From positions 1-26,831 of IMG/VR virus record IMGVR_UViG_3300034190_000926: a DNA stretch of 26,831 nt, one strand, 5' to 3'. This document shows, piece after piece, positions 558 through 20,081 of this stretch. Under the pieces are notes generated by a model. The model searched no databases and was not told where the DNA came from. It saw only the letters and a list, made by a program, of their open reading frames with translations. Position 1 is the first letter of the stretch. Each line of letters opens with the position of its first letter. Position numbers and translations under genes: made by a program. Source of the DNA: a virus.

Positions 558-1036
558 TGAAAATTATAGAGAAACTTAGTACATATGCCGCATTGCTTGG
601 AGTTATTGGGGCTATAGGTGGGGGCTTTTACACATGGGGTCAGTTCAACACTAGACTTGATGCAATAGAATCTGCACCAGCTGTAAACTTATCACCCTTA
701 GTAGCAAAAGATAAAGAACTATCTGGTAAGATAGATGAAGCATTACTATATGCTAATGAATATAAAGTAGACTTAATAGACAGAATTAAAAAGGTAGATG
801 ATAAGATTGTACCTGTAGATTTAACAACAGTATTTAAAGACATAGCTAAAGTCAGAGAACAAATGGCTATGATTAACATACCTAATATTGATGGACTTAA
901 AAAAGATATTAAAGAAATCAAAAAAGCTTTAGGTGAAATGGAAAAGAAACTTGCTGTAGTAGCAAAAGAAAACGAATTACAAGATATACTTATAGAAGAG
1001 ATGAAGACTAGGGCTAATAACCCTTTGGCTAATTAA
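557..1036 (+). CDS. Membrane-anchored coiled-coil protein, 159 aa
   Basis: Not assigned to a family. Residues ~8-28 form one hydrophobic, Gly-rich segment (YAALLGVIGAIGGGFYTWG) preceded by a basic amphipathic start, consistent with a single N-terminal membrane anchor. The rest is Lys/Glu-rich and helical (for example KKDIKEIKKALGEMEKKLA), probably a coiled coil extending from the membrane. It starts at the ATG within TAATG formed with the preceding stop, so translation is probably coupled. Its 3' end overlaps the last 8 nt of the convergent 2594-residue gene. A small anchored coiled coil could be a lysis accessory or an inner-membrane component, but no holin, spanin or other signature is visible. 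The reading frame is secure; the function is unknown. Confidence 0.7.
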   Translation: MKIIEKLSTYAALLGVIGAIGGGFYTWGQFNTRLDAIESAPAVNLSPLVAKDKELSGKIDEALLYANEYKVDLIDRIKKVDDKIVPVDLTTVFKDIAKVREQMAMINIPNIDGLKKDIKEIKKALGEMEKKLAVVAKENELQDILIEEMKTRANNPLAN

Positions 1037-4000
1037 GACCTAACGTCTCTCTTAATCTTAATTTTTCTGCGATTGTTTCCTGCTTGCCTTTCATGATGGC
1101 ATAGTTAGGATCGGCCGCTCTTAGTGCATCATCAAACTTTCTATTTAGATCTGGTATAAACATTTTGGTAGGATTGTTTTGATTATGTTTCATAATATCC
1201 TTATATATCTTTTGTATTTCAGCATTGCCTTCATTAATTAAACTACCGTTTCTATTCTTACCACCCATAATTATTTTTATATAAGCATTTTCTATTCTTG
1301 CATTCATTCTTTGTTTAAATGTATTCGTTGCTCTGTCCATCTTACGCATTAAAAATAATGCTTCTCTACCTTTAGATATTTCTGTCGGTGTAAATCCTAA
1401 TAGTTGTTTTAGCGTAGTGACTGCAGTTATATCATCTGTTACAACAGAACCATATGATGAAGTTATGTAGCCTTCACCAAACATATAGTCCATACTCTTA
1501 AGAGGATTTCTAATTCCAAGTGGCAAACTGTTAACTATTACATCACCCCATCTGCCTTCTCTAAATCCAAGGCTTTGTAAATTATTAAAGCCATCTATAA
1601 ATACAGAACCTGGTGCACCTAAGAACTCTTCTGCTCTTGCACCTGTGTCTACACCTGCAAGTGAAAGTGCTGCTCTGATCTGCGTAGACCAGGGGGCAAC
1701 TCCAAAACCAATACGTCTTTGTACATCAATACCCATATAAGAACTAATTAACCCAGACTCTAATGCTTCTATCGCGGTAGGACTCCAGCCTGCTGAATAT
1801 AACATGTTTCTAAATTCAGATCTTACATCCGCGTCTATTCCTGTTTTGTTTCTTTTAACTAAGTTGTATATATCTTCTGCATCTTCACCGCCTGGCAATC
1901 CAAATAAACCGCCTGTAATCAGCATCATTAACATAATACGAGCAAATGCACGGCGGCCTACTCTATTTTGTAGCGCAGTTTTATCTGCTGCCATTCCAAC
2001 AGGATTAAGTAAACGATATAACAATCCAAACATTTGACTAATGTATGTCATAAACAAAGCAGGTAATGAACCAAACCCTCTGGCTAAAAATGGTCTGTTT
2101 TCTTTACCGTATACACCAAATGTTTCTTCAACCATAAATCTAGCAAAAGCTTCTGGTGTATTGCCGAATCTATCTTTTTGGTTTTGATAATCTAAATCAT
2201 TACCATACAATAATTCTGCATTTTCTAATACTTTAGGATCTTTACTTGCTAATCTATAAGCCGCCATAAAAGCTGTTATACGTGAAGCAGCTTCAAAAGT
2301 ATTGAATGCTCCACCTACAAATACATTTTCAAATTTTCTAAAATTTTTTCTTGCAGCTGATTGAGTTCCTACTTGAGTACCGCCTGGGCCTGGCACGATG
2401 CCAGCCTCTTGCATAGCTTGCCCTTGTTTAATTGTACCATCTGCTACTGCTGTAAATATAGCGTCTTTTAATCCAGGTACGTCATCAAATACTTTGTTAA
2501 AATCTAAAAAAGCATCTTCATATTGTCGACCAGAAACTTTAGCCATGCTTGTTGCATCGGCTATAGCTTTGCCTAACTCAACAGTAGTAGCTTTTGTTCC
2601 TGCCATTTGTGACAATAAAGGCCCTGTAAATTGAACTAAAGACATTGTTTGTAACATAGCTGATGATATGTTACCACCAAGATACCACCAGAATCCCATG
2701 CGTCTAAAGTTAGCCCACTCTTGTACAGGATCTTCTGTGTAATCAAAGAATGCTTGTGTTGCTTCTTGTAAATTGTTATCTCCTTTAGCTTGTGCATCTT
2801 TTATTGTTTCATTATAATGATGACTTATTAATGGTTGATATCTGTTACGTGCTATTGCTTCACTGGCAGTCATTATGTATTGCATTGTCGCTCTTGTGAA
2901 ATCTGCACTATAACCTGGCACACCTTCTAGTCCTACACTTCTGTCTCTTGGTGTTCTATATGCACCGATTGGAGTAATGTCTTTATCTAAACCTTTTGCA
3001 GCTAACACTTGTCTCATTTCTTTCATAGCTTCTTGGAATCTTCTTGCATTTGTATCTGACATAAACTGTGATAAATATTCTATGGATACTGTAGGCCCTG
3101 CTTCTTTTATTAATCTTCTAACTTCTTGAATAGTCATTACAGCTGGTTGACTCACAGTTGCATTGGGATATTTTGCAACGAGTTGTGAGCGTTTGGCAAG
3201 GGCTTTTTTCATAGCCGATCTATTTCCTAATGTCTCTGTGCCTATGTTACCTTCGAATGTTTCGTACCATATAGTTTTTCCATCATCATCTTTTACTGTA
3301 ATAAACACATTACCAAATCTTTGTAATGGTATATATGGTCTACTCATGTAACCTTCTGCTATACTTGCTTCCGCTAATAATTTGTTAAGACCCGCGTCTT
3401 TATTACCTAGTAATCTATTTATTATTTCTGCAAACTCTCCTGTCACCATACCTCTGCCTATCATTACATTTGATAAACTGTCTACAATAAATTTTATTTG
3501 TTTAGTATCTACATTCTCTAAAGCATATAGCTGTTGTTCTCTTGCAAGACTATCAAACTCTGCTTTATTTAACAAGTTTATTGTGCCCCCTTTTGCATCA
3601 AACGATACTCTAATTTCATCACGTAATCTAGGAAAGAACGTACGTATCACATCCAATGCTTCAGTTAAATTTTCAATATGATCTCTTGATATTGTAGCTT
3701 TTAAATCTTCTTTTATTAAAGTTGCCATGACTAATTGATGATCTTTCATAGCCATAGCTACATCACCTGTTAAAACTACAACTTCTCCTGCTACTACATC
3801 AAGATCTGACGCACCACCATCTGCAGGTGCAACAAACACTAGCTCACCATTCTCATTAAACTCTGGGAACTTGCCTGTCATCTCCATGATAATGTGTGCT
3901 TTGTTCATTCTTTCATTTGCTACAGGATCTTTTTTAACTTCTAAATATCTTTGTTGTAAAGTAGCAGTTAAAGACATTTGCAAAGATCTAGACTTAAATA

Positions 4001-7000
4001 TTTTATTCATAACGTTTGCATACATTAATCTAAATTTTGGATATACTTTAGCATATGATCGTGCGTGTCCTAGCACTCTAGAGAAGAATGACATCTTTCT
4101 AGGAGTTGCTTGTGAACCTGGTTCATACGCAGTCTCACCATCTTTAATTGCTTTTTTCATTTCGTTGAGTGTAGCTCTTTTTTCTTGTCTGTTCATTCTA
4201 TTAGAAGGATCTTGTATTTCACCCAATTCATATCTAATTGCAGGGTTGTTAGCAAAATTGTTAATATAAGGTTTAGTAAAATTGTAGTTAGAAATGTTAC
4301 CTTGCAAGTCAGGCATATTCATAAAACCTTCGTATACTTTTTTACCCATCATGTCCGCTATGTTACCAGATTCTGTTGTGCCCCCTTGTGTAACTAATTG
4401 ACCTTCAAATAAATAATTAGATAAAAAAGTTTTGTTTCTTATATCACTTCTACCTGTTTTATTATTTTTATATGCTTCAGGATCTCCTGTTCTTTTAAAT
4501 CGTACAGCTACAGGTATCTTTGTGTTGCCAGTATTTAAAGCTTTAATTGTAGTTACTCTGTGTCTACCTTCATGTGATACAACTCTACCTATACCACCTG
4601 TTTCGTTTATTTCTATTTCAATATAAGGCACTCCAAATCCTACATTATCCAGGGCTTGTTCCATCATAAAGCTTGTAGTTCTTTCAGTGTAGTCTGTTTC
4701 TACATCTAATGGTGGTACTAAAGCTAAAAATTGATCTACAGTCAGCGGCATATACATTGACGTATAGGGGGCAGTAATATCTATACCTCCTATACCTGCT
4801 CGACCTGTACGAAACTCTGGTTTCTTACCTACTGGCGATGTAGTAGTTGCATTTTCTAATCTTGTTTCTAATTCAACTCTAGCTTGTAAAGGCTTCTTTA
4901 AATTTTTTATTCTTGTTATAGTTCTTTTTAATTGTTTAATCTCTTGTTGTTCCATAGGATCTCTGTTCCTAAGAGGAACAAGAGTATCTTTAGTAGCCTC
5001 CTCAACATAAGCTTCTGCTTCTGCTAATGTTCTAAACCTGGTATCACTTAAAAAATTTGCTATAACATTTTTTTGAAACTCTAAAATCGCAGGATTGTCT
5101 GATGCTAATCTATTACTAGAAACTAAAACACCCATAGGATTTATGCCCATGGTTTTTTCTATATTAGCTACAATTTTTATTTGTTCTGCATCAGCTCTGG
5201 CTTGCATTCTTTGTCCGATGATGCCAGTTTGCACTGCATCAAAAATGTCGTAAGCATTGTTAAATCCATTTTGTTTAAAACTAAAACCAATTAAAGATAA
5301 GAAAGCTTTTATTCTATCAAATAGTCTTTGTAATACAGTTCTATCAGTTGTGTATTGTTTTGTAAAAGATTCTTTAGGTGGGGATTTACCTATTTTTAAA
5401 AATGCTTGCATTGCTTTAGCAATGCCTTCTTCAACTTGCAAAGCTTTGAATTGTTCTGGTGTGTATGACGGATAATTTTCTTTAACATATAAAGTTTTTA
5501 TATCATAATCTTCTATAAAAAATTCTTCTGAAGCTTTTGTTAATACTTGCCATTCTTGTTTTGTAAACAATCCCATGCTTTTTAAAGCGTGTATGGCTTC
5601 ATGATTTAAAGTACTAAATGCTTTGTTAAACATTTTAATTTTTTGTTCAGGAGTTGCTTTGTTAAATTTATCTAAATCAAAAGCAATGTGAATCATACTT
5701 AAATTTATGTTAGGATCTAACTGATCAGAGCCACTTATTAATCCCTCATCTATTGCAGCTTTGGCTCCTCTATATGCAGCACCACCCATTGCTTTTTCTG
5801 GTAAGAATGCACCTACAGTACCTGGGCCTCCTAACATGTCAGACGCTGCGCTATTCATCATGCCAATATCTACAGTCGCTAATCCTAGTCTGTTTGCTTC
5901 TTGTCTAAACACTTCCATTATCTGAAGTAAATTAGCATATACTTTTGTTTGTATTTGAGGATAATCACCTTTAGATCTTTCATCAGGTTCTTTGTTAAGC
6001 ATTGTATATTGAGAATAAATGCTTTTCTTTTTAAACTCTGGGGTTGTTTGATTTAATTTTTTACGATACTTATTAATAGTAGACTTCATAGAACGCTCAG
6101 TAAACTCATTCCAATTTAGTATAGGTTCTATACTCATAGATTCAAGCATTTTATTCATTTGTATTCTAGACTCTAACACTTGTCCTAACATATTTTGATA
6201 TACAGGTAATTGTTCGGTTGCATTTTTTCTAACAATAGGATCTTCTGATTGAAGGTTACGTTGTAGGTTTACTATAATATTGTCGTAAGTTTTAAAAGCA
6301 GTAGGTGATAGTATAGGCACAAGCGAGAACACACCCTCTGGTGCTAGACCATTTATTAACACATGCTCGCCTGTGTTTCTAAAGTCTGCTAAATCTTTTT
6401 TAGCTTGTTTGTAACTTTCACTTAGTCTGCCGTATTGAAACTCGGCTACTTTTATTTTATCTTTTAAAGCTTGTTCTAATTCTTTTAATTGTGGATCATT
6501 TATTTGTTTACGTTTCCAACCGTCTCTATCTAATTTACTTGCCAACTCTAGTACAATTCTCATTCTAACTTCGACAGGTTTATCGTAAAGATTTTCAAAT
6601 GACATTTCTTCTGTGTATGTAGATGGATCATATTTAGTTGCAGGTATTAATCTATCGCCAGACAAACTTGCTTTTTCTTGAGCAGTTAGTGGTTGGTTCT
6701 TAGTTATTTTTTCACCAATCTTTTGTTGTACTTTAACTGGGCCACCCAGTATATCTGGTATAGAACTAAATCTAGTTCCATTTCTTAATATACTATCTAA
6801 TAATCTTTTACCAGATGACTCTGTTTTATTTACAGGATTTATATTACTTCTAATTCTTTCGTTGACATAGTTCTGCCCCCTTTCGCCAAAGTAACCTAAG
6901 TCTTTTAATTGTTTGTCTTGCTCTTCAGATATAGCAACTTGATCTGTCAAACCTTCTGATTGTTCTGCAAACTCTTGAGTTCGCCAGAATGGTAGATCTT

Positions 7001-8813
7001 CTCTAATAGCTTGTTCTAATTCGTTGTCTGGCACTCCATCATACTTTGCATATGTTTTATCTAGTTTAGGTATGTAATCTAATAAATCTTGTTCCCTATC
7101 TTCTTGCGGCGTTGCTTCAAATGTTTTTCTTTCGTCTCTTTGTAGCTCTCTATCTGCAATAATTCTATTAGCTACATTACGTACAATGGTATCGTCACCT
7201 TTTAAAAATGCAGTTACATCAGTTTCTTGTGCAGTATTTAAATGTCCTGTCTGCACCATTCTTCTTTTTAACTCTGTGTGTTTTGTTCTTACGGCATCAT
7301 TTAATTTATTGGTAGTTGCTTGTCCATCGTATGCAAAATTTTCTTTTTGTTCTGGTACTTCACCACCACCCGAAGGATCTTCTACTACATTTACTTTACC
7401 AAGTTCGTTAGGTCTTAAGAAAACAGTAGCTGGTTTAATTGCATTTGATTGTAAAACAAAAACAGTTTCAGGCCCTTGGCCTTTTTGTAATTCAATATTA
7501 GCTGTACCTAAAACTTTAAATGTAGGTTTGCCAAACATTCCTTCTAACTGTGCTTGACGTTCTTTATCTATGTCAGCATTGTATTCATTGTCTATTGTAA
7601 CTGTGTTGCCAATGTCAAAGGGGGCAGATTGGATTGGTTCTTGTGCTGGATCAGTGTTTAATTCAGCCCCCAGTGTTGCACCCTCTAATGTATCTTTAGT
7701 TACACCACCCATTCTGTTTATAACTTTTAAAGCTTTAATACTCGGATTAACTGTACCAAATGGCATACCACCAAAGAAACCAGCGGCTGCTGCTTCACCT
7801 AATTGTTTTGCAAATTCTTTATTGTTAAACATGTCATCAAAACTTTTACCAGCTTCTATTCCAGCTGCACCAGTTGTTATTGTTTCTTGTATTGATTCTG
7901 CCAAACCTTCTTCAATCATAGTTTTTGGTACTTCTTTTAAAAATGTACCAGCTAATTTTCTATACTTAATTTTACCATCTGCAGTTACTAAACCTTTTAA
8001 TAAACCGTTTCTTGTTGCTTTTGCTGCAGCTTCTTTACTTCCAAAAGTTTTAATTAAAGCAGTGGGTATACGACCAATACCTAAAGATTCTGCAGCTGCG
8101 TATGGTATAGCTGCTGCAACTGATAACGCTAAATTAGGATCATCTGTTTCTTCTGATTGTGCTAAATAAGATTCACCCAAACCAAACATAAACCCACCTA
8201 AGTATCTTCCTGCTACACTGCCTGCTACAGCACCACTATATGTACCTAGTCCAGGAGCAAGCAAACTACCAGTTATTGCACCAACACCACCACCTACAAA
8301 ACTTAATAATAAAGTAGGAAAACTAGTAGCTGCCGCTTCACCAAACTTTTCTCTTGCATATTTTGTAAAAGCAGCTAAGTGGTCATCATCATTTATAATT
8401 TCTTCTATTGTTCCTACACGAGATAATAACTTACCTTCGTCATCTACTTGATACATAAGTGCGGCTTTGTCAAACATGTATTGATCTGCAGCACGTTTGG
8501 CTTCTTGTCTGGCTTCTTCGTTTCCTAAAAAATCATTAGCAAATGCTAATACGCTTTGGCCTACAGATTTTGTACTAAGCCAACCTTTCTTTAAACCTGA
8601 AGTTAGGTGCCAGTCGTCTAAGTTATCTAATTCTAATTGATTAACAGGTTGTAGACCATACTTAAAAGCAAAACCTTTTTCTGCTAAAGTTTGTTCTACG
8701 TAATCTGATTTGAGGTATTGGTCTATTTGGTCTTGAGTAAAGTCTGCAGGAACTGCAATACGTGGTGCCTCTGGCACTTCTTCAAATCGAATATACTTTA
8801 CTTCTTCTACCAT
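1029..8813 (-). CDS. Giant multi-domain virion/ejection-type protein (zincin, ParB-like, PLxRFG), 2594 aa
   Basis: By size, last position in the late operon and domain content, this is probably a DNA-ejection or internal virion protein of the polyvalent type, entering the cell with the DNA. Visible parts: residues 158-216, a Gly/Ala-rich hydrophobic glycine-zipper-like stretch (GGGVGAITGSLLAPGLG); 1071-1075, HEAIH, a zincin motif, with a possible third zinc ligand in EEGIAKA at 1128-1134; 1414-1419, HEGRHR followed by VTTIKAL, resembling the ParB/sulfiredoxin nuclease motif; 1829-1834, PLQRFG, the hallmark of the long C-terminal PLxRFG region of phage proteins; about 2240-2310, two hydrophobic stretches (SQMFGLLYRLL, RIMLMMLITGGLFGL). 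No lysozyme or transglycosylase signature was recognised, and an N4-type virion RNA polymerase is not supported. The ATG at 8813 has only a weak AGG ahead of it. Enzymatic roles are inferred from motifs only. Confidence 0.85.
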   Translation of the reverse strand: MVEEVKYIRFEEVPEAPRIAVPADFTQDQIDQYLKSDYVEQTLAEKGFAFKYGLQPVNQLELDNLDDWHLTSGLKKGWLSTKSVGQSVLAFANDFLGNEEARQEAKRAADQYMFDKAALMYQVDDEGKLLSRVGTIEEIINDDDHLAAFTKYAREKFGEAAATSFPTLLLSFVGGGVGAITGSLLAPGLGTYSGAVAGSVAGRYLGGFMFGLGESYLAQSEETDDPNLALSVAAAIPYAAAESLGIGRIPTALIKTFGSKEAAAKATRNGLLKGLVTADGKIKYRKLAGTFLKEVPKTMIEEGLAESIQETITTGAAGIEAGKSFDDMFNNKEFAKQLGEAAAAGFFGGMPFGTVNPSIKALKVINRMGGVTKDTLEGATLGAELNTDPAQEPIQSAPFDIGNTVTIDNEYNADIDKERQAQLEGMFGKPTFKVLGTANIELQKGQGPETVFVLQSNAIKPATVFLRPNELGKVNVVEDPSGGGEVPEQKENFAYDGQATTNKLNDAVRTKHTELKRRMVQTGHLNTAQETDVTAFLKGDDTIVRNVANRIIADRELQRDERKTFEATPQEDREQDLLDYIPKLDKTYAKYDGVPDNELEQAIREDLPFWRTQEFAEQSEGLTDQVAISEEQDKQLKDLGYFGERGQNYVNERIRSNINPVNKTESSGKRLLDSILRNGTRFSSIPDILGGPVKVQQKIGEKITKNQPLTAQEKASLSGDRLIPATKYDPSTYTEEMSFENLYDKPVEVRMRIVLELASKLDRDGWKRKQINDPQLKELEQALKDKIKVAEFQYGRLSESYKQAKKDLADFRNTGEHVLINGLAPEGVFSLVPILSPTAFKTYDNIIVNLQRNLQSEDPIVRKNATEQLPVYQNMLGQVLESRIQMNKMLESMSIEPILNWNEFTERSMKSTINKYRKKLNQTTPEFKKKSIYSQYTMLNKEPDERSKGDYPQIQTKVYANLLQIMEVFRQEANRLGLATVDIGMMNSAASDMLGGPGTVGAFLPEKAMGGAAYRGAKAAIDEGLISGSDQLDPNINLSMIHIAFDLDKFNKATPEQKIKMFNKAFSTLNHEAIHALKSMGLFTKQEWQVLTKASEEFFIEDYDIKTLYVKENYPSYTPEQFKALQVEEGIAKAMQAFLKIGKSPPKESFTKQYTTDRTVLQRLFDRIKAFLSLIGFSFKQNGFNNAYDIFDAVQTGIIGQRMQARADAEQIKIVANIEKTMGINPMGVLVSSNRLASDNPAILEFQKNVIANFLSDTRFRTLAEAEAYVEEATKDTLVPLRNRDPMEQQEIKQLKRTITRIKNLKKPLQARVELETRLENATTTSPVGKKPEFRTGRAGIGGIDITAPYTSMYMPLTVDQFLALVPPLDVETDYTERTTSFMMEQALDNVGFGVPYIEIEINETGGIGRVVSHEGRHRVTTIKALNTGNTKIPVAVRFKRTGDPEAYKNNKTGRSDIRNKTFLSNYLFEGQLVTQGGTTESGNIADMMGKKVYEGFMNMPDLQGNISNYNFTKPYINNFANNPAIRYELGEIQDPSNRMNRQEKRATLNEMKKAIKDGETAYEPGSQATPRKMSFFSRVLGHARSYAKVYPKFRLMYANVMNKIFKSRSLQMSLTATLQQRYLEVKKDPVANERMNKAHIIMEMTGKFPEFNENGELVFVAPADGGASDLDVVAGEVVVLTGDVAMAMKDHQLVMATLIKEDLKATISRDHIENLTEALDVIRTFFPRLRDEIRVSFDAKGGTINLLNKAEFDSLAREQQLYALENVDTKQIKFIVDSLSNVMIGRGMVTGEFAEIINRLLGNKDAGLNKLLAEASIAEGYMSRPYIPLQRFGNVFITVKDDDGKTIWYETFEGNIGTETLGNRSAMKKALAKRSQLVAKYPNATVSQPAVMTIQEVRRLIKEAGPTVSIEYLSQFMSDTNARRFQEAMKEMRQVLAAKGLDKDITPIGAYRTPRDRSVGLEGVPGYSADFTRATMQYIMTASEAIARNRYQPLISHHYNETIKDAQAKGDNNLQEATQAFFDYTEDPVQEWANFRRMGFWWYLGGNISSAMLQTMSLVQFTGPLLSQMAGTKATTVELGKAIADATSMAKVSGRQYEDAFLDFNKVFDDVPGLKDAIFTAVADGTIKQGQAMQEAGIVPGPGGTQVGTQSAARKNFRKFENVFVGGAFNTFEAASRITAFMAAYRLASKDPKVLENAELLYGNDLDYQNQKDRFGNTPEAFARFMVEETFGVYGKENRPFLARGFGSLPALFMTYISQMFGLLYRLLNPVGMAADKTALQNRVGRRAFARIMLMMLITGGLFGLPGGEDAEDIYNLVKRNKTGIDADVRSEFRNMLYSAGWSPTAIEALESGLISSYMGIDVQRRIGFGVAPWSTQIRAALSLAGVDTGARAEEFLGAPGSVFIDGFNNLQSLGFREGRWGDVIVNSLPLGIRNPLKSMDYMFGEGYITSSYGSVVTDDITAVTTLKQLLGFTPTEISKGREALFLMRKMDRATNTFKQRMNARIENAYIKIIMGGKNRNGSLINEGNAEIQKIYKDIMKHNQNNPTKMFIPDLNRKFDDALRAADPNYAIMKGKQETIAEKLRLRETLGLN
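1033..1066 (+). terminator. Weak terminator-like hairpin for the plus-strand pair
   Basis: TTAAGA at 1033-1038 can pair with TCTTAA at 1050-1055, or AGAC at 1036-1039 with GTCT at 1045-1048. A TTTTT run at 1062-1066 follows. It begins at the stop codon of the 159-aa gene and lies inside the 3' coding end of the opposing gene. The stem is short and AT-rich, so this is tentative. Confidence 0.3.
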
Positions 8814-8858: not shown

Positions 8859-9641
8859 TTACTGAGGTTTGTACGGTATGTCAGAGCTTGCGCCAGACGT
8901 ACCACCCAGTTCCGCAGTTATCAAACCTTGAACATCTTTTATCTGTTGTATGATAGTCGCGGTATCTTGATTAGCTGCTTGTGCTTGTAATAACTGTTCG
9001 TTTAAATTTTTTAATGTTTCTGAATAAGATGCTAAGTTTGCAGATAAACCTTTGCCTCGTAACTTTTCACCAATGTATGTAGTGAAAGGTGGAGTGCCAG
9101 GTATAAGACCTGCTGCTATAGCTTGTTGTGATAAGTCTTTCATAGCAGTTGTATAATACTGCATAGGATTTGCACGTTGTCTTGCTAATGCTACATCAGC
9201 CATAGCTTCAGCTTCTGCTTTTCTTTTAGCAATACTTCTTTTTTCTCCTTGTTCAGAACCTACAATTAAATCTCTTGCCAAACTTCTAGCTTCTCCAGGT
9301 TCTGTTGGTCTACTAATTTGTGCACCTATGCCACCAAGTTGGTCAAAAAATCTTTGTCTAGCATCAGCATCTGTTTTTAATTTTTCCATCATCTTACCAA
9401 AAACACTCATGTTTGCTAGTCTATCTTTTTCCGCTTGTTCTGCATCTTTTTCTTCTTTTTTCATTTTAAACGCAGCCAATTTGCTTTTCATAAAGTCATC
9501 CATTCCTGAATCAGCTACTGGCCCAGGTGGCAATTTTGGTAAGTTTTGTAGAACAGCATCTCTAAAATCTAGAGGCAAATCGTCTATTGACATATCTGGA
9601 GTAAGTATTCCAGTACCTTTATTTTCTTTTTTATCAGCCAT
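8859..9641 (-). CDS. Helical, charged putative internal virion protein, 260 aa
   Basis: Not assigned to a family. The N-terminus (to ~residue 45) is polar and Pro-containing. A highly charged helical stretch follows (KMKKEEKDAEQAEKDR), then a long Ala/Gln/Arg-rich helical region, and a Gln-rich helix near the C-terminus (EQLLQAQAANQDTATIIQQI). No signal peptide or membrane segment is seen. The start is the ATG in a TAATG overlap with the preceding gene. It sits directly before the giant gene and after two other helical or low-complexity proteins. This arrangement (several helical proteins followed by a very large one) is like the ejection-protein blocks of podoviruses, so an internal virion protein is the best guess, by context only. 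Confidence 0.7.
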   Translation of the reverse strand: MADKKENKGTGILTPDMSIDDLPLDFRDAVLQNLPKLPPGPVADSGMDDFMKSKLAAFKMKKEEKDAEQAEKDRLANMSVFGKMMEKLKTDADARQRFFDQLGGIGAQISRPTEPGEARSLARDLIVGSEQGEKRSIAKRKAEAEAMADVALARQRANPMQYYTTAMKDLSQQAIAAGLIPGTPPFTTYIGEKLRGKGLSANLASYSETLKNLNEQLLQAQAANQDTATIIQQIKDVQGLITAELGGTSGASSDIPYKPQ

Positions 9642-10525
9642 TATTTAAATATACTCCCATAAATGTTAGCACCTTGCATACCCATACCAAGTAATTGACT
9701 TAGGAATGGTGCAGGTCTTTGACCTGGAGTTTGACCAACAGAAGTTGTTTGTTGCCCAAATGGCGCACCTCTAATAATATCAGATACAAATCCAAGTTGT
9801 TCTTTTGGAAAGTCTCTTTCTTGTAAGAAGTCAGTGTAACCAATATCTATTGCTTGTTGTTGTTGACCTCTTTGCAATCCACCGATGCCTTGTAAAGTAG
9901 ATAGATCACTTTGTCTACCAAGTTGTCCTCTTGATCCAATCTTACTCATAGCATCTGCTGATTTTAATTGTTGACCTCTATCAGTTTGTGCTGCTTTTAA
10001 TGCAGTCTCGTATGCTGATGCTTGTGCTTTAGTATATAAATCACCTAGACCTGATTGTAAATTCTTTTGTCTCTCTGCTTCTAATACTGCAAAACGTGTG
10101 TTATCCAATCCACCTGCACCGACAGCTTTAGCTGCTATGTCTTGTTGTTCTCTTAATGATTGTTCTCTTAACTTACCTGCCGCTACATCTGCAACGTTAG
10201 TCATGTAATCTGTCATGTAAGGACTGACTGAAGATAAAGCTGGAGCACCTGATGCTGTTGCCGCTGTGTATGCTTGGTCTTGTTGCAAACCTGCGATACC
10301 TTGCATATCTCTTGCTTGTTGAAATGCGTCTTGTTCATCTTGAGTAAACCCTGCAAGTCTTGGACCAGTGTAAGGTATAAAACCTTCTCTAGCCACATCC
10401 ATAGCTGAACCTATTATTTGTGCTGTTGGTTCTGCTATATACTTAGGTATTTCAGTAGTGCTTATATTAGTTGTTTCTACTGGTGGTGGATTCCTATCTC
10501 CAAACATGAAATCAAATATTCCCAT
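9641..10525 (-). CDS. Ala/Gln-rich putative internal virion (ejection) protein, 294 aa
   Basis: The sequence opens with MGIFDFMFGDRNPP, then YTGPRLAGFTQDEQDAFQQA. The YxGPxxAGF pattern followed by a Q/A-rich helical body is something I associate with phage structural or ejection proteins, though I cannot name the family firmly. Residues ~65-235 are almost entirely Ala/Gln/Asp/Leu helix. The C-terminus is Gly-rich (FLSQLLGMGMQGANIYGSIFK) and weakly hydrophobic, compatible with membrane contact during ejection. Both ends are coupled to neighbours by TAATG overlaps, and GGAGGAG from the upstream gene's 3' end lies near the next start. Cellular location is inferred to be inside the virion. Confidence 0.7.
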   Translation of the reverse strand: MGIFDFMFGDRNPPPVETTNISTTEIPKYIAEPTAQIIGSAMDVAREGFIPYTGPRLAGFTQDEQDAFQQARDMQGIAGLQQDQAYTAATASGAPALSSVSPYMTDYMTNVADVAAGKLREQSLREQQDIAAKAVGAGGLDNTRFAVLEAERQKNLQSGLGDLYTKAQASAYETALKAAQTDRGQQLKSADAMSKIGSRGQLGRQSDLSTLQGIGGLQRGQQQQAIDIGYTDFLQERDFPKEQLGFVSDIIRGAPFGQQTTSVGQTPGQRPAPFLSQLLGMGMQGANIYGSIFK

Positions 10526-14624: not shown

Positions 14625-15215
14625 TCAAGCCTTATCTACTGCAAAATTGTAAGCTAAAGTTATCCTAGATTTATCTAATTTGTGCTGTTCAACTGCATGG
14701 TGTATGTGACTTCTAAATATTAGCAGTTTTCCCTCAATAGATTCATGTGTAATATGTGCATACGGATCTTCTTTATTGTATTTTAATTCTACCATATCCT
14801 CTACTGGGGATTTAAACCAGACTTTACTACCACCTTTTGGTGATTGTAAAAAGTATATAGCTGATAAAGCAGACCCTGTATGTATATGAAACTCTTGAAA
14901 ATCTCCTTTGCCATACACATTAAACCAAGCATTCTCAGGTGCTACATTAGAACCTATGTAATTGCTGCCCATATATTCTGCTACTTTACTAAATACCCAT
15001 TGATGTAAATCTGCAAATGCTTCATCTTTTAATATATCGTAATCAGTATGTATGGTATTATAAGTCTTATTTGCTAGCCAACCTTCACCTCCAGGTTTAG
15101 TTTTTTCTTTTACTTCTAAACATCTTTTAACTAATTTATTTTTGATATTTTTATTATCTTTGTTAAGACTATAACCAATGCCTGTAGCAAAAAACTTCTC
15201 TGTTACTACTTGCAT
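14625..15215 (-). CDS. 2OG-Fe(II) oxygenase-like protein, 196 aa
   Basis: Resembles the phage-rich 2OG-FeII_Oxy_5-type oxygenases, which use 2-oxoglutarate, O2 and Fe(II) to oxidise a substrate. Visible features: W97 and NVYGKGDFQEFHIH (H110, H112 in a HxH pattern rather than classical HxD), then SALSAIYFLQSPKGG, the strand pair expected after the first metal motif; LLIFRSHIHHAVEQH with H173 in the place of the distal iron ligand; R184 (SRITLAYNF) as the likely 2-oxoglutarate anchor. The substrate cannot be read from the sequence. It is the last gene of the seven-gene cassette and overlaps the previous gene by 10 nt. AGGTGG lies upstream of its ATG. Confidence 0.8.
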   Translation of the reverse strand: MQVVTEKFFATGIGYSLNKDNKNIKNKLVKRCLEVKEKTKPGGEGWLANKTYNTIHTDYDILKDEAFADLHQWVFSKVAEYMGSNYIGSNVAPENAWFNVYGKGDFQEFHIHTGSALSAIYFLQSPKGGSKVWFKSPVEDMVELKYNKEDPYAHITHESIEGKLLIFRSHIHHAVEQHKLDKSRITLAYNFAVDKA

Positions 15216-15664
15216 TTCATACCACCTACTGCTACTTTTTTATTTAGTTTAGATTGTAAACCCTCGTGTTGTATATCTGCATCGAATACAACTAGTTTAC
15301 CTCTTTTAGGTTTTGTAGTTATTACTTCATCATCTCTATAAAATACTGTGTCACCATCAGAATCATTTAGATAAAGTATAAATGATTTGTCTTCGTGTTC
15401 TTCATGGTTGTGACGATCTTGATAACCACCTTGAAAGTATTCTATTAAATGCATATGGTCAAAGTTATATTCTTCTAGTTGCAATTCTTTAACTAGCTTT
15501 GAATGCAATGTAGGATACAAAACATTGCCAGTTTGATATCCGTTTTGTGTTTTATTTTTTGCATTTCTTATTTCTAATATTGGAGTTCGAGCTTTCCAAT
15601 ATTCTAATAAATCTAACAATTCATTAATTAGATCGTTGTTTTCTATACGTGTTACTTTAATCAT
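15206..15664 (-). CDS. Short 2OG-Fe(II) oxygenase-like protein, 152 aa
   Basis: The C-terminal two thirds follow a double-stranded beta-helix oxygenase pattern: QDRHNHEEHEDKSFILYLND (H85 and H87 near the first metal position), DGDTVFYRDDE, then KPKRGKLVVFDADIQHEG with H133 as the probable distal iron ligand, and K142/K143 where Arg or Lys would bind 2-oxoglutarate. The gap between the first His and the LYLN strand is short and no clean HxD is visible, so metal binding may be non-standard or the protein may be inactive. There is no convincing ribosome site; translation probably depends on the 8-nt overlap with the upstream gene. Substrate unknown. Confidence 0.7.
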   Translation of the reverse strand: MIKVTRIENNDLINELLDLLEYWKARTPILEIRNAKNKTQNGYQTGNVLYPTLHSKLVKELQLEEYNFDHMHLIEYFQGGYQDRHNHEEHEDKSFILYLNDSDGDTVFYRDDEVITTKPKRGKLVVFDADIQHEGLQSKLNKKVAVGGMKCK

Positions 15665-16265
15665 TTTTAAAATATTGAGGTAATCCTAAGAATGGTCTTG
15701 TATCATAAATATAATTTTTATCATCTGTAAAATGAAAAAATACTTGTGCACAATCATCTCCTTCAAAGGCATCTCTCCAGTGTTCTAATTCACAACCTCT
15801 GTACATTAGCATGTCTCCTGGATTTAAATTTACCTCTACCCCTTTCTTATTTTCTTTACCTGATGGTTCTAAATAAATGGGCCACTCATCTCCTCCTATA
15901 TTCATCGTTGTAGAAATTTTACACGATGGTCTATCTTTATGTCTTTTTAAGACATCCCCCTTTTTATATATTCTATAATACGTGTAAGTAGAATACAAAT
16001 TTAATTTACTTTCTTTTTCTAATATGGGTCTTATAGTTTTTTCTAATAACAAATCAAATATAGGATCACCATACATACCATATGTTTGAGGTACTTGCCT
16101 ATCACCAAATGATCCATGATCTACACTAAAGTAAGTTATATATTTTTGTTCAAATTTAAATTTAGCAATGTTTCTTTGCAGTAACATATAATCATAAAGA
16201 AAGTTAGCAAACTTTGTATCTATTGCATTTGGTACAACTAAATAATTATCTTCTACAAAACTCAT
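15657..16265 (-). CDS. 2OG-Fe(II) oxygenase, 202 aa
   Basis: The start at the ATG at 16265 is preferred because it makes an ATGA overlap with the preceding stop and follows GAGAGGAAAG; a GTG at 16289 would add eight residues. The core has YYRIYKKGDVLKRHKDRPSC with the HxD motif H109-K-D111, then STTMNIGGDEWPIYLEP, and NLNPGDMLMYRGCELEHWRD with the distal H162. This is a classical Fe(II) facial triad. The PGDMLMYRG..LEHWRD wording is shared by a group of oxygenases common in marine phages. Cosubstrates would be 2-oxoglutarate and O2; the target is unknown. It is embedded between other oxygenase genes of the cassette. Confidence 0.85.
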   Translation of the reverse strand: MSFVEDNYLVVPNAIDTKFANFLYDYMLLQRNIAKFKFEQKYITYFSVDHGSFGDRQVPQTYGMYGDPIFDLLLEKTIRPILEKESKLNLYSTYTYYRIYKKGDVLKRHKDRPSCKISTTMNIGGDEWPIYLEPSGKENKKGVEVNLNPGDMLMYRGCELEHWRDAFEGDDCAQVFFHFTDDKNYIYDTRPFLGLPQYFKND

Positions 16266-16834
16266 ACAAAATTCTTTCCTCTCAACCACGCTACTGCTGA
16301 GTATCTAACCCCTTTGGTAACTGGCATAACTTTGTGCCATAGAAATGAAGGAAATACTACAAGGCTTCCTTTTGGTTTTATTTCTGAAACAGTTAACTCT
16401 TCTCCTGGTTTAACAACATTTGCGTTGCTTAACATAAAACTACCACCTTCGTATTCTGATGGATCACTTAAAGATATTACAACTGATAACTTTCTAATTG
16501 TGTCACCATCTGAATTAAAATCATAATGCCAATCATAATGTTGTCCTGGTTTGTATTCTGTAAATTGGACTGCTTCAGATTTTTCGTACTGAAAGTTCCA
16601 ACCAGCATTTTTGTTAGCTTCTGAAACAAATGGAAATATTAAACCATATAACCAATCTTCATCTATCCAAGAGATGTTTGAATTTCTAATTTCTAAATTT
16701 TGTTTAGCTGGGTCTGTATTGTCACCAGCTAATGCTACATCTAGCTTCTTATCTTTGCCTACTTTTATTATATCTTCACAAATATTGTTTGGCATGGCTT
16801 GATTAAAATACCAATAATTATAATTTAATATCAT
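16262..16834 (-). CDS. Prolyl-4-hydroxylase-like 2OG-Fe(II) oxygenase (PKHD type), 190 aa
   Basis: This is the clearest oxygenase in the window. EYKPGQHYDWHYDF carries the HxD motif (H103, D105); RKLSVVISLSDPSEYEGGSF is the strand and GG turn typical of P4H/PKHD hydroxylases; GSLVVFPSFLWHKVMPVTKG has the distal H167; R177 in GVRYSAVAWLRG binds 2-oxoglutarate. Family members hydroxylate proline or other residues in proteins, or small molecules. The length fits a stand-alone catalytic domain. It starts in an ATGA overlap with the carbamoyltransferase C-terminal gene and has AAGGAG upstream. The substrate is not evident; the nearby Gly/Pro-rich fibre protein is one candidate by proximity only. 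Confidence 0.9.
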   Translation of the reverse strand: MILNYNYWYFNQAMPNNICEDIIKVGKDKKLDVALAGDNTDPAKQNLEIRNSNISWIDEDWLYGLIFPFVSEANKNAGWNFQYEKSEAVQFTEYKPGQHYDWHYDFNSDGDTIRKLSVVISLSDPSEYEGGSFMLSNANVVKPGEELTVSEIKPKGSLVVFPSFLWHKVMPVTKGVRYSAVAWLRGKNFV

Positions 16835-17370
16835 ATTAACTCCTTACTTTCAGGCAGATATAAATAATCTATCGCAGATTGTTCAACTACATTCTTTGCA
16901 TCTCTTAAAGTTTGTACAATAGGATAACCTGCCATATTGAATGAAGTATTAAATAATATTGGAATCTGTGTTAGGTTGTAAAATTCTTTTATTAAATCAT
17001 AAAAGTTTTTATTTGTTTCTCTTTGCAGAGTTTGAACTCTACACGTACCATCTACATGTGTGATAGCTGGTATTAAAGATTGTTTAGATTTGATTACATC
17101 TACAGCATACATCATAAATGGTGACTCAGTTTGCTTACCTAAATCAAACCAATCTTTTGCGTACTCGTACAAAACTGTACCAGCAAATGGTCTAAACCAT
17201 TCTCGTTTCTTTACTGTATTTACTTTGTCTTTACCATTAGGATTGGCTGGATTGTGTAATATACTTCTATTGCCTAATGCTCTAGGACCTGATTCAGATG
17301 CTCCTTGAAACATAGCAATTATTTTATTATCTGCTAATAATTGTGCAACGTCTTTATGTGTTACGACCAT
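16831..17370 (-). CDS. Carbamoyltransferase C-terminal domain (NodU/CmcH family), separate gene, 179 aa
   Basis: Corresponds to the C-terminal domain of NodU/CmcH/TobZ-type O-carbamoyltransferases, which transfer a carbamoyl group from carbamoyl phosphate (via carbamoyl-adenylate) to a hydroxyl. Hallmarks: MFQGASESGPRALGNRSIL (residues ~20-38), KKREWFRPFAGTVL, SPFMMYAV, PAITHVDGTCRVQTLQ and ILFNTSFNMAGYPIVQTLRDA. In most relatives this is fused to the N-terminal domain in one chain. Here it is encoded in the +1 frame relative to the upstream gene, with a 17-nt overlap, its own ATG and an AGGAG about 10 nt before it. The two products probably form the active enzyme together, unless the split is a sequencing frameshift. 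Confidence 0.88.
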   Translation of the reverse strand: MVVTHKDVAQLLADNKIIAMFQGASESGPRALGNRSILHNPANPNGKDKVNTVKKREWFRPFAGTVLYEYAKDWFDLGKQTESPFMMYAVDVIKSKQSLIPAITHVDGTCRVQTLQRETNKNFYDLIKEFYNLTQIPILFNTSFNMAGYPIVQTLRDAKNVVEQSAIDYLYLPESKELI

Positions 17371-18442
17371 AGTATATATTCTCCTGTTTTCTAATTGTCA
17401 TATCTTTTGTCTCACCATGATATAACATCTTAGCTGCTCCCATTGAAGTTCCTGCATCGTTAGATAAAGGTTCTATATACAAAGAAACATCATCTGGTAA
17501 CGATTTCATTATATCATAATTGGCTACGCAATTCAAGAAATAACCTCCACTCAAACAAACCTTTTTTGTCTTGGTTTTCTGTACCCAATCTAACACATAT
17601 TTTTTTACATGCTTTTGAGTTTCTGTTTGTAAGGCATATGCAAAGTCTGCTCCAGCTTGAAAGTTATCTCTAGCTAAATCCATGTATGGATAATTTTTGT
17701 TATTAATAAACATTTTAGTTAGATTGTCATCTATATAAAAAAGTCTATTATTTAATTTACCATCTGTGTATATTGGCGGAACGCATTCATTAGGTTTGCC
17801 ATAACTAGCCATACCCATAAGTTTACCAGCGTCCATATGTGCAAAGCCAAAAAATTCAGAGCTATGTCCAAATGCTTGAGCAGGACTCATGTGATTACTG
17901 ACATGCATTCGACTATCTATATCTACTTTGCCTTTTATTTCTGTGGGATAACTTATGTGTTTTTCTAACAATTCAAAAGATGCTGGATAAGAACCTTGAA
18001 ATACTGAAGTATGTTCTCTGCCATATACTCTTTGACCATCTAGTTTAAAGTAAACTTCTGAACCCATACCATCTATAACTATACATAAAGCATCTTCAAA
18101 ACCTGAATTGTAAAAACTGCAAGCAGCATGAAGTTGATGATGATGACTACTTAAGTCTGTAGTTTTGAATGGTTTGAATTTAAATGAGCGAGATAAATTA
18201 TCTACAAGATGTGTAAATATATCTTTACCTTCCCAATAATCTATATCTTGTTTAGAGAAAGCTGCTATACCTAATCTGTCTATATGATCTACATACTTGG
18301 TTATTTCTAACATAGCATGTATAGGAAGACAGTCGTACTTTATTTTTGTTAATCTTTCGTTTTCTAAATGTAGTAAGACTTCACCATCTTTAACTAAACA
18401 GACAGAAGCGTTATGATTACGATTTATACCTAAGCAAATCAC
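17354..18442 (-). CDS. Carbamoyltransferase N-terminal domain (Kae1-like ASKHA), separate gene, 362 aa
   Basis: The N-terminal, adenylate-forming ASKHA domain of a NodU/CmcH-type carbamoyltransferase. Seen: GINRNHNASVCLVKDGEVL with ENERLTKIKYD; HHHQLHAAC (residues 101-108) matching the His cluster that binds metal in Kae1/TobZ proteins; VIDGMGSEV; KLMGMASYGKP (207-217); VCLSGGYFLNCVAN (295-308); LSNDAGTSMGAA (326-337). It ends IYYGRNT, the place where a full-length enzyme would run on into the C-terminal domain. The start is a GTG overlapping the upstream stop (GTGA). The partner domain follows directly. An acceptor hydroxyl could be supplied by the neighbouring oxygenases, which is inference. 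Confidence 0.9.
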   Translation of the reverse strand: MICLGINRNHNASVCLVKDGEVLLHLENERLTKIKYDCLPIHAMLEITKYVDHIDRLGIAAFSKQDIDYWEGKDIFTHLVDNLSRSFKFKPFKTTDLSSHHHQLHAACSFYNSGFEDALCIVIDGMGSEVYFKLDGQRVYGREHTSVFQGSYPASFELLEKHISYPTEIKGKVDIDSRMHVSNHMSPAQAFGHSSEFFGFAHMDAGKLMGMASYGKPNECVPPIYTDGKLNNRLFYIDDNLTKMFINNKNYPYMDLARDNFQAGADFAYALQTETQKHVKKYVLDWVQKTKTKKVCLSGGYFLNCVANYDIMKSLPDDVSLYIEPLSNDAGTSMGAAKMLYHGETKDMTIRKQENIYYGRNT

Positions 18443-18984
18443 GGAATAGTTACACCAATAGATAATTTTTTATCTGTTGTTTTAACCACCTCGTGTCTTG
18501 TAAATCTAGGAACTAACAAAGTATCATTAGCTTTTAATGTAACTTCTTCTCCAGAAACTAACCAATGTCCTGTTCCATATATTTGTTTAACGACCACATC
18601 AAAGTCGTGTTCATGCGTAGTGTAACTTATTTTCTGCCCCCCTGGCTTGGCAAAAACAAAGTTTGCATTTACTGTATCACCTACTAATTTTTTACAGATT
18701 AAATCTAATTCTCTTAATTCTTTTGTTAAATCTAACACACTGTTTAACACAGTCATAAAACCGTTGTCGTAATACTTCTTCCATTCTTCATAGACAAAGT
18801 AACCATCGTAACTGTAAAAAGGAAATACTAATATACCACTGCTATTTAATATTTCTACACCGTATTGACCCCATGGATATTTTAAAGGCCATCGTTTTCT
18901 TATTTGCAAAAGATCCAATACATCATCTTCCTGTAACGGAATATGTAAGTCTTTTAATTCTTGTTCTAGTTTATTTAAATACAC
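18439..18984 (-). CDS. JmjC/RoxA-NO66-like cupin oxygenase, 181 aa
   Basis: The C-terminal half resembles the JmjC ribosomal-oxygenase group (RoxA/ycfD, NO66, MINA53; Cupin_4). That group has an N-A-Y..PPG..G...HyDdHDvFvlQ..GxKxW pattern, which can be matched to NANFVFAKPGGQKISYTTHE, HDFDVVVKQIYG and GHWLV here. H124 and H126 (with D127 adjacent) are the likely first metal ligands and H164 in VPRFTRHEVVKT the distal one. Known relatives hydroxylate His or Arg in ribosomal proteins. The N-terminal ~100 residues (KRWPLKYPWGQYGVEI) are not recognised. It starts at a GTG after AGGAG, directly behind a terminator-like hairpin, and is the first gene of the cassette. Distance from proven enzymes is unknown, so activity is inferred. 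Confidence 0.7.
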   Translation of the reverse strand: MYLNKLEQELKDLHIPLQEDDVLDLLQIRKRWPLKYPWGQYGVEILNSSGILVFPFYSYDGYFVYEEWKKYYDNGFMTVLNSVLDLTKELRELDLICKKLVGDTVNANFVFAKPGGQKISYTTHEHDFDVVVKQIYGTGHWLVSGEEVTLKANDTLLVPRFTRHEVVKTTDKKLSIGVTIP

Positions 18985-19002
18985 ACACTCTCCTGTAAAA
19001 GA

Positions 19003-19022
19003 GGGGGCAGTTTCCCACCCCC
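19003..19022 (-). terminator. Terminator/attenuator-like G5:C5 hairpin
   Basis: On the minus strand, right after the stop of the glycine-rich gene, GGGGG and CCCCC flank a 10-nt loop and are followed by TCTTTT. The stem is only five pairs but all GC. The ribosome site of the next gene (AGGAG) follows at once, so this probably lowers read-through into the cassette rather than ending the operon. One arm is a copy of the AGGGGGCA repeat. Confidence 0.5.
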
Positions 19023-19031
19023 AGTGTTAGT

Positions 19032-20081
19032 TTAGCCTGATGTTGATTTCCATCTTCCTGCTTCAATTCTGTCGAATACATCTTTTTGATTCCACATACC
19101 TGGAGCTATGAATGTTAATCCTGGAACAGCAGCTTCATGTATTACTACTTTACCGCTACCTCCATCTCCACCGTCTCTTGGTGGGGAGTTACCTCTTGGG
19201 TGACAAGCAGAACCTGCTCCACCGCCACCTCCGCCTGTATTGGCTGAAGCATCTGATCCGTTTGCATCTGTTCCACCAGCACCAGCTCCACCTGGGCCAG
19301 CAGCACCGCCTGCTGTGTTACCTTTTACAGTACCACCTCCGCCACCGCCTGCAACAGTAGCTGAATAATTTCCTACGTTAAATGGTGAACCGTTTCCACC
19401 GTTACCACCTCTACCTGGTTGAGATCCGTCACCGCCTGATAGACCAGCGCTACCAGCGCCACCACCTCCGCCAGATCCTGAACCACCAGCTGGGCAAGTG
19501 TTTCCACCTGTTCTATCTCCACCTGCGTTACCTTGACCTGGTGCATTTGGAGATTCACCGCCTGCAGAAGAAGCTCCGCCTCCGCCTGATCCTCCTTGTT
19601 GAGGAGGGGCATTAGAACCGCCACCACCGCCTCCGCCACCTAAAGCTGTGTATGTTGTACCACCTGCTATAACGACAGAGTTACCTCCTGGAGATCCTGC
19701 ACTGTTTTGTACACCACCTGGAGTACCAGCTCCACCAGCGCCTACAGTTACAGGAACAGCATCCTGAGGAACTGCTACTGCACTATTGCCTGGACTGTTG
19801 GTATTTGCACTATTAAAGAGAACGCCTCCGCCTCCTCCACCGCCACCTTGACGGTTGTTGTCAGCTCCAGCACCGCCGCCGCCTCCACCAGCAACAATTA
19901 ATATGTTTGCTGTATTAGAAGCTTGGCCTGCTTGAAATGTACCTGACGAGTTAAATTGTGTAGTAGCTGCTGCTTGGTCTTGTGCATATCTAGTTACCTG
20001 AGATGGGCCTATTATCCCACCATTGTCTTTTGCAAAAGATGAAGAGCCTAAGTCTTTAGTTATTGTATTTACGCCTGCCAT
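19032..20081 (-). CDS. Polyglycine-rich tail fibre/adhesin-like protein, 349 aa
   Basis: After an N-terminal ~55 residues (TKDLGSSSFAKDNGG, RYAQDQAAATTQFNSSGTF), ILIVAGGGGGGAG begins about 230 residues built from runs of five to eight Gly separated by Pro-, Asn- and Ser-containing turns (TPGGVQNSAGSPGG, APPQQGGSGGGG). The C-terminus is ordinary sequence (VPGLTFIAPGMWNQKDVFDR, IEAGRWKSTSG). Long Gly runs of this kind can pack as polyglycine-II helices, as in T-even-like gp38 adhesins, so a receptor-binding tip or fibre role fits, next to other fibre genes. Two Cys (TCPAG, SACHPRG) are present. A good AAGGAG precedes the ATG. The coding DNA is locally GC-rich because of Gly codons. Function is by resemblance and position. 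Confidence 0.7.
   Translation of the reverse strand: MAGVNTITKDLGSSSFAKDNGGIIGPSQVTRYAQDQAAATTQFNSSGTFQAGQASNTANILIVAGGGGGGAGADNNRQGGGGGGGGVLFNSANTNSPGNSAVAVPQDAVPVTVGAGGAGTPGGVQNSAGSPGGNSVVIAGGTTYTALGGGGGGGGSNAPPQQGGSGGGGASSAGGESPNAPGQGNAGGDRTGGNTCPAGGSGSGGGGGAGSAGLSGGDGSQPGRGGNGGNGSPFNVGNYSATVAGGGGGGTVKGNTAGGAAGPGGAGAGGTDANGSDASANTGGGGGGAGSACHPRGNSPPRDGGDGGSGKVVIHEAAVPGLTFIAPGMWNQKDVFDRIEAGRWKSTSG

Follow-up and report, generated by a model that had tools for sequence, protein, structure and literature searches.

A giant phage PLxRFG protein with a predicted zincin, a variable cargo position and a ParB/sulfiredoxin-like domain

The whole 26,831-base stretch of virus record IMGVR_UViG_3300034190_000926 (hereafter the window; 36% GC) encodes on its minus strand a 2594-residue protein that, judged by its sequence, is a phage PLxRFG/polyvalent protein and is probably injected together with the phage DNA. 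Its two ends and a zincin-like domain recur at related loci (given L-labels such as L001 or L064), and the position that follows the zincin holds different domains in different relatives: a ParB/sulfiredoxin-like domain in the window, an ADP-ribosyltransferase (ART) or a methyltransferase elsewhere. We consider it likely that this polyvalent protein belongs to a tailed phage, travels in the virion and is ejected, that its zincin most likely acts in processing and that the ParB/sulfiredoxin-fold domain is a payload. More tentatively, and at somewhat less than even confidence, we propose that domains bearing (H)EGR[HG]R form a separate and so far uncatalogued enzyme family of the ParB/sulfiredoxin fold that serves, beside ART and methyltransferase domains, as an interchangeable warhead on the injected chassis, is released by the zincin, and has been placed at least twice, before and after it.

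The open reading frame (ORF) runs from an ATG at 8813 down to 1029, and the plus strand carries many stops across this interval; the initial annotation, made from the sequence, had claimed the 2594-residue frame, and the coding strand is the minus strand. HEAIH, HEGRHR and PLQRFG lie at exactly the residues it had given (1071-1075, 1414-1419 and 1829-1834), the EEGIAKA said to follow HEAIH is present, and the N-terminal glycine zipper is real: seven GxxxG pairs fall within 45 residues from residue 174, a density equalled in 1 of 1000 shuffles. The claim of C-terminal hydrophobic segments holds for a single stretch, 2289-2307; the other four lie near the N-terminus (168-186, 228-246) or mid-chain (818-836, 1671-1689), and all five are moderate (Kyte-Doolittle 1.5-1.8). 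The features of the protein, all on the minus strand, are as follows.

1029..8813, minus: giant polyvalent/PLxRFG ejection-type protein, 2594 residues (NF032893, phrog_11358)
7614..8813, minus: conserved N-terminal part, residues 1-400 (identity profile against L012, L048 and L013)
8148..8294, minus: glycine-zipper stretch, residues about 174-222 (seven GxxxG in 45 residues, shuffle test)
5214..5936, minus: predicted zincin-like metallopeptidase domain, residues about 960-1200 (alignment A4, model, VIA-align)
5589..5603, minus: HEAIH, residues 1071-1075, predicted zinc-binding helix (H, E and H kept in 28/28 aligned sequences)
5412..5432, minus: EEGIAKA, residues 1128-1134, predicted helix of the third zinc ligand (both Glu kept in 28/28)
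4209..5186, minus: variable cargo position, residues about 1210-1535 (different domains in relatives)
4389..4802, minus: predicted ParB/sulfiredoxin-like domain, residues about 1338-1475 (model, Foldseek, VIA-align, alignment A10)
4557..4574, minus: HEGRHR, residues 1414-1419, strand-helix turn signature ([HQ]EGR[HG]R in 13/13 aligned)
1275..3338, minus: PLxRFG (tail-700) domain, residues 1826-2513 (NF032893, predicted model, BFVD matches)
3312..3329, minus: PLQRFG, residues 1829-1834 (motif position)

The C-terminal part and the class of the protein

The NCBIfam model NF032893 matches residues 1826-2513 with 197 bits against a curated cutoff of 100 (E 5.5e-58), which places the protein in the PLxRFG family, and phrog_11358 matches with E 1.6e-41; a Pfam scan of the whole protein returns no family at E up to 1. 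A tblastn search of phages with the giant protein gives 52 records, none covering 80% of the query. Among the matches listed, those to the F116/H66-type Pseudomonas phages (about 26% identity over residues 1827-2559) and to the PLxRFG protein of Shewanella phage Y11 (25%) are confined to the C-terminal part; for the homologue gp60 of H66, the record notes verification in the virion by mass spectrometry. A structure model of residues 1800-2594 (pLDDT, the predicted local distance difference test, 67.8) has 35 matches in BFVD at E 0.001 or better, of which eight are named large polyvalent protein and two internal virion protein D; these two, from the Roseobacter phages CRP-4 (E 4.9e-7) and CRP-5 (E 2.7e-6), are the entries compared for a T7 gp16-type core domain and reach a query TM score of 0.36.

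Two genes lie upstream.

8859..9641, minus: 260-residue neighbor, directly upstream of the giant gene (homologue upstream in 5/13 loci compared)
9641..10525, minus: DNA ejection protein homologue, second gene upstream (phrog_4287, E 9.3e-14)

Of the 13 loci compared, 12 have a phrog_4287-type homologue upstream of, and on the same strand as, the giant gene; at the thirteenth, L065, the giant ORF begins 612 bases from the locus end. The polyvalent, ejection-type class put forward in the initial annotation is supported by NF032893, by the distant homologue noted in the virion, by this conserved neighbor and by the BFVD matches of the C-terminal model. A zincin motif with its element order, a ParB/sulfiredoxin-like domain and a PLxRFG domain stand in one chain, the several-domain build that defines polyvalent proteins, with the activities predicted.

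The zincin-like domain

Relatives of the zincin region are encoded at 37 loci, three of which are the window's close kin. In the 28-sequence alignment A4, the only invariant columns are the H, E and H of HEAIH and the two Glu of EEGIAKA, so that the putative zinc ligands persist down to 21% identity to the window; A4 leaves out copies (L010, L011, L016, L017, L018, L026, L030, L033, L039, L043) and truncated or short members (L040, L045). The family hidden Markov model (HMM) collects 47 distinct segments at E below 1e-10, a cut that L045 and L089 miss. HExxH is found in all 47, and the second-helix Glu is matched by pattern in 44 and by eye in two more (L037, L057), the last of the 47 being L040, which is truncated. 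Of the Glu pair, L069 and L071 retain a single residue, and L045 has HEAIH together with a single-Glu EGIAEA. Chance would give 0.012 HExxH per shuffled copy of the protein, as estimated from 500 shuffles. HEGRH formally fits the same pattern, and we do not take it as a second zincin motif because two relatives read QEGRH there.

In the model of the middle of the protein, VIA-align finds weak but consistent matches of the zincin part to anthrax lethal factor residues 49-263 (Z 6.7), which we take to be a non-catalytic zincin-like domain, and to a putative zinc peptidase (Z 4.0). In this part the model places an N-terminal helix and three strands ahead of two motif helices, one holding HEAIH and the other the EE pair, and pLDDT is close to 90 in the vicinity of the motifs; zincin-like peptidases have been described with this order of an N-terminal helix, a three-stranded sheet and two helices (Iyer et al. 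2017, PMC5512222, cited here and below for the part of its text consulted). HEAIH (model 132-136) falls in helix 116-140 and the Glu pair (model 189-190) in helix 180-202; an HExxH on one helix and a Glu on a second, the arrangement by which zincins are recognized, is thus present in the model and in all 28 aligned sequences. With modest confidence, we place HEAIH and EEGIAKA on the pair of helices that a zincin would have; the initial annotation had named a HEAIH outside such a fold as grounds for rejection, and the model, weak as its matches are, gives none. No Pfam model passed for the zincin segment, and the sole match in Pfam scans of two segments of the window protein is a chance-level ArdA (E 0.049).

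The ParB/sulfiredoxin-like domain

The model of the middle of the protein puts EGRHR (residues 1415-1419, model 476-480) where a strand ends and a helix starts, within a β-α-α-β-β-α-β succession. For this domain, the first 15 Foldseek ranks are taken by sulfiredoxin or Prx1-sulfiredoxin entries (E 4e-3 to 0.29) and rank 16 by ParB (E 0.8); further matches from VIA-align are Noc, ParB, SbnI, Osa and a serine kinase, with Z of 3.7-5.6 for the superfamily. Because these scores overlap those of unrelated rows, the weight rests on independent superfamily members agreeing on model residues 404-504. The predicted fold is thus one that the domain would share with sulfiredoxin, ParB/Noc, SbnI and Osa, and we assign HEGRHR with modest confidence to its strand-helix turn; an HEGRHR outside a ParB-like fold would have told against the initial annotation, and the model does not put it there, despite low pLDDT and the overlapping Z scores.

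Alignment A10 reads [HQ]EGR[HG]R in 13/13 sequences, two of them 93% alike, and both Arg are invariant in all 13; its rows do not include L095 and L097, which nearly duplicate L094 and L096. The signature of sulfiredoxin is FGGCHR, with a catalytic Cys. A comparison of the motifs by eye puts an Arg of the ParB-like family in the position of that Cys, and the motif has no Cys in any of the 13 sequences. Two further candidates for kinship were set aside: the DdrB-ParB of phage Y11, at an hhalign probability of 0.15% (profile against a single-sequence template), and a ParB-like stretch picked by eye in the giant protein of Ruegeria phage 45A6, which gave no hhalign match.

Within the family, the window's group is linked to the ParB-like domain of L064 by tblastn (34% identity, E 2e-6, through L099, the window's near twin). 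The domain also occurs in other giant ORFs, at L100, L101 and L102, for which neither the zincin HMM nor the C-terminal HMMs applied gave a match. A 227-residue ORF at L098 (8773-9453, on a 152-kb contig) has an HEGRGR version of the motif without the rest of the chassis. Neither six members scanned alone nor the window segment passed any Pfam or PHROG model, and Pfam shows the DdrB-like ParB family PF18763 in neither the whole protein nor the segment. Two scans of the genome-contig collection, with the family profiles A3 and A9, gave 171 and 91 pattern matches with no relative by tblastn, nor did tblastn of phages turn up any when the ParB-like domains of the window, L048, L064 and L098 served as queries. 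The family looks uncatalogued in the libraries searched (Pfam and PHROGs, and NCBIfam for the window protein), and it would be a candidate early-infection effector without a name in them.

A conserved chassis with variable cargo

A profile of the C-terminal part finds 41 loci, and 20 distinct ORFs, the window's included, match both the N-terminal and the C-terminal HMM at E below 1e-10. The zincin HMM matches all 20. What follows the zincin is ParB-like in four (window, L004, L012, L048), an ART in 11, a methyltransferase in one and unrecognized in four (L059, L060, L064, L082; Pfam was run on L059 and L064); L057, incomplete at its N-terminus, has the ParB-like domain there as well. All seven of the ART proteins given to Pfam passed PF18760, the other four being recognized by HMMs built from those, and the methyltransferase of L061 (E 1.8e-4) is below Pfam's cutoff. 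In the giant ORF of L067, a methyltransferase, also below that cutoff, appears to be nested inside an ART domain (residues about 1193-1613). The methyltransferases of L067 and L061 are 48% identical, against 38, 39 and 33% for their N-terminal, zincin and C-terminal parts, an excess that hints at exchange of cargo between chains.

The ParB-like domain precedes the zincin in L064 and L082 and, in another lineage, in L094 and L095. In a tree of the C-terminal part, which includes L094, omits the unlabeled fragments L062 and L066 and leaves L019 and L023 without a label, carriers of the domain after and before the zincin form two separate groups (99/100 and 100/100). A tree constrained to unite all eight ParB-like carrier rows is rejected (approximately unbiased test, p-AU 3.75e-5), with the caveat that the group was defined with an earlier tree already in view. 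At contig IMGVR_UViG_3300037991_000246, the giant ORF is broken between L002 and L003, by a frameshift, an assembly error or a real break.

Polyvalent proteins of phages and conjugative elements (PMC5512222) have in common with the window protein a giant multidomain chain, a zincin, a ParB/sulfiredoxin-type domain and a late-gene context, and their ART and methyltransferase domains occur in its relatives; it differs from them in its ordered chassis with a variable cargo position and in a ParB-like family outside the Pfam and PHROG models. The proteins of phages 45A6, H66 and Y11 carry between them LPD, DdrB-ParB, ART, methyltransferase, GNAT and helicase domains, the repertoire described for this class in the same source. 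The H66 and Y11 PLxRFG proteins share the C-terminal domain and carry LPD, methyltransferase, DdrB-ParB or ART domains of their own. The 3912-residue protein of 45A6 is 31% identical in the zincin region, with HExxH and EEAIA; it is longer, has LPD38, GNAT, methyltransferase and helicase domains, and matches none of the (H)EGRxR-domain, N-terminal and C-terminal HMMs. Literature searches did not turn up the chassis/cargo layout. Ordered natural differences of cargo on one probable injection chassis would make zincin processing and effector function comparable across relatives.

Proposed mechanism and its alternatives

We posit that the conserved ends are probably a delivery chassis, which would carry the chain into the cell, a role suggested by the homologues and neighbors: the glycine-rich N-terminal part may associate with or pass the membrane, and the helical PLxRFG part may serve packaging and ejection. 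Because it is retained whatever the cargo, the zincin-like metallopeptidase is most likely a processing protease, which would cut its own chain in the head or after entry and so free or mature the payload. The payload, on the strength of its fold and one motif, would most likely be a nucleotide-binding enzyme (a nucleoside triphosphate hydrolase, phosphotransferase or nuclease) that acts early in the host. Injection and self-processing have been argued for polyvalent proteins in PMC5512222; for the window protein, we infer virion location, ejection, self-processing and cargo activity from the comparisons above, and the zincin and ParB/sulfiredoxin folds are structure predictions. The functions that the initial annotation offered, nuclease or CTPase activity for the ParB-like motif and, for the zincin, processing of virion proteins or attack on host defense, are likewise candidates.

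Several points weigh against this reading. The middle model has a mean pLDDT of 60, and about 60-75 in the ParB-like part, and Foldseek finds nothing for it in the PDB at E 0.001 or below; the structural matches of the zincin are weak even at their best, unrelated rows on a long helix attain Z 5.2, a level that most ParB/sulfiredoxin rows do not exceed, and the C-terminal model has no convincing fold match in PDB. Retrieval contributes to the conservation: zincin relatives were gathered with a pattern around HExxH and an HMM of the same region, one of the two search patterns for the ParB-like family contained EGR, which makes the conservation of EGRxR partly a matter of construction, and the 20 two-ended ORFs include several near-duplicates and derive from patterns and profiles of the same domains. 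N4 packages its virion RNA polymerase (vRNAP), another protein with an HExxH domain, without processing it (PMC5512222), and self-cleavage is therefore not general.

The alternatives are not all mutually exclusive. A role of the ParB-like domain in nicking or degrading the DNA of the host or of a rival, of the kind put forward for DdrB-type ParB domains, is unlikely, though it ranks highest among them: the predicted fold falls in the same superfamily, for which nuclease activities have been reviewed (PMC5512222), but no kinship to the Y11 DdrB-ParB is detectable in the comparison of profile with single sequence, and DNA would be a putative substrate. Slightly less likely is a zincin that is a host-directed effector, cleaving a host defense or housekeeping protein rather than processing the chain; the conserved active site would suit it, and PMC5512222 raises the possibility of zincins that act as effectors, yet a zincin found in 20/20 chains while the cargo varies fits general processing better, even if a universal host target would fit equally.

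A step lower in probability, we rate it improbable that both folds play a structural, non-catalytic role in an ejection machine. The ejected N4 vRNAP gp50 (PMC12633501, in the part consulted) has a layout similar to that of the window protein: an N-terminal part, then a subdomain with HExxH, then a C-terminal region that is large and helical. The absence of reported protease activity for that subdomain (C1; same source) favors the structural reading, as does the packaging of gp50 whole (PMC5512222); the invariance of the putative zinc ligands down to distant relatives and of EGRxR in 13/13 sequences, retrieval bias included, speaks against it. Gp50 may be kin to the window protein: against gp50 alone, the zincin HMM scores 5.0 bits (E 0.0011), one C-terminal HMM 5.9 bits (E 1.4e-4) and another -1.5 bits (E 0.027), and hhalign reports 15% across a 35-column stretch at HExxH, all low scores from a single-sequence comparison. 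Pfam at E up to 1 finds no N4-type RNA polymerase domain in the window protein. Very improbable is a tape-measure or other ordinary tail protein with motifs by chance. The glycine-rich stretch, residues 171-228, does match a probable tape measure protein (9ki1_g, E 1.1e-4), the best result of PDB sequence searches that were otherwise empty or weak (3c5p_A, E 0.016, with the ParB-like profile), and the NCBIfam model bears the name tail-700; but HExxH is rare in shuffles and is conserved with the second-helix Glu, and the exchange of cargo and the ejection-gene neighbor also speak against such a protein.

Other features of the window and its relatives

Farther from the giant gene, two overlapping ORFs at 16831-18442 (minus) match the first and last parts of phrog_1601, a NolO/NodU-like carbamoyltransferase. 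A run of four ORFs at 14625-16834 (minus) resembles 2-oxoglutarate (2OG)-Fe(II) oxygenases or prolyl hydroxylases; the first (14625-15215) matches phrog_81, and the other three were judged by eye. The 349-residue ORF at 19032-20081 (minus) is very glycine-rich. At L001, the opposite strand past the end of the giant gene (14653-19830) encodes the large and small subunits of ribonucleotide reductase and an exonuclease.

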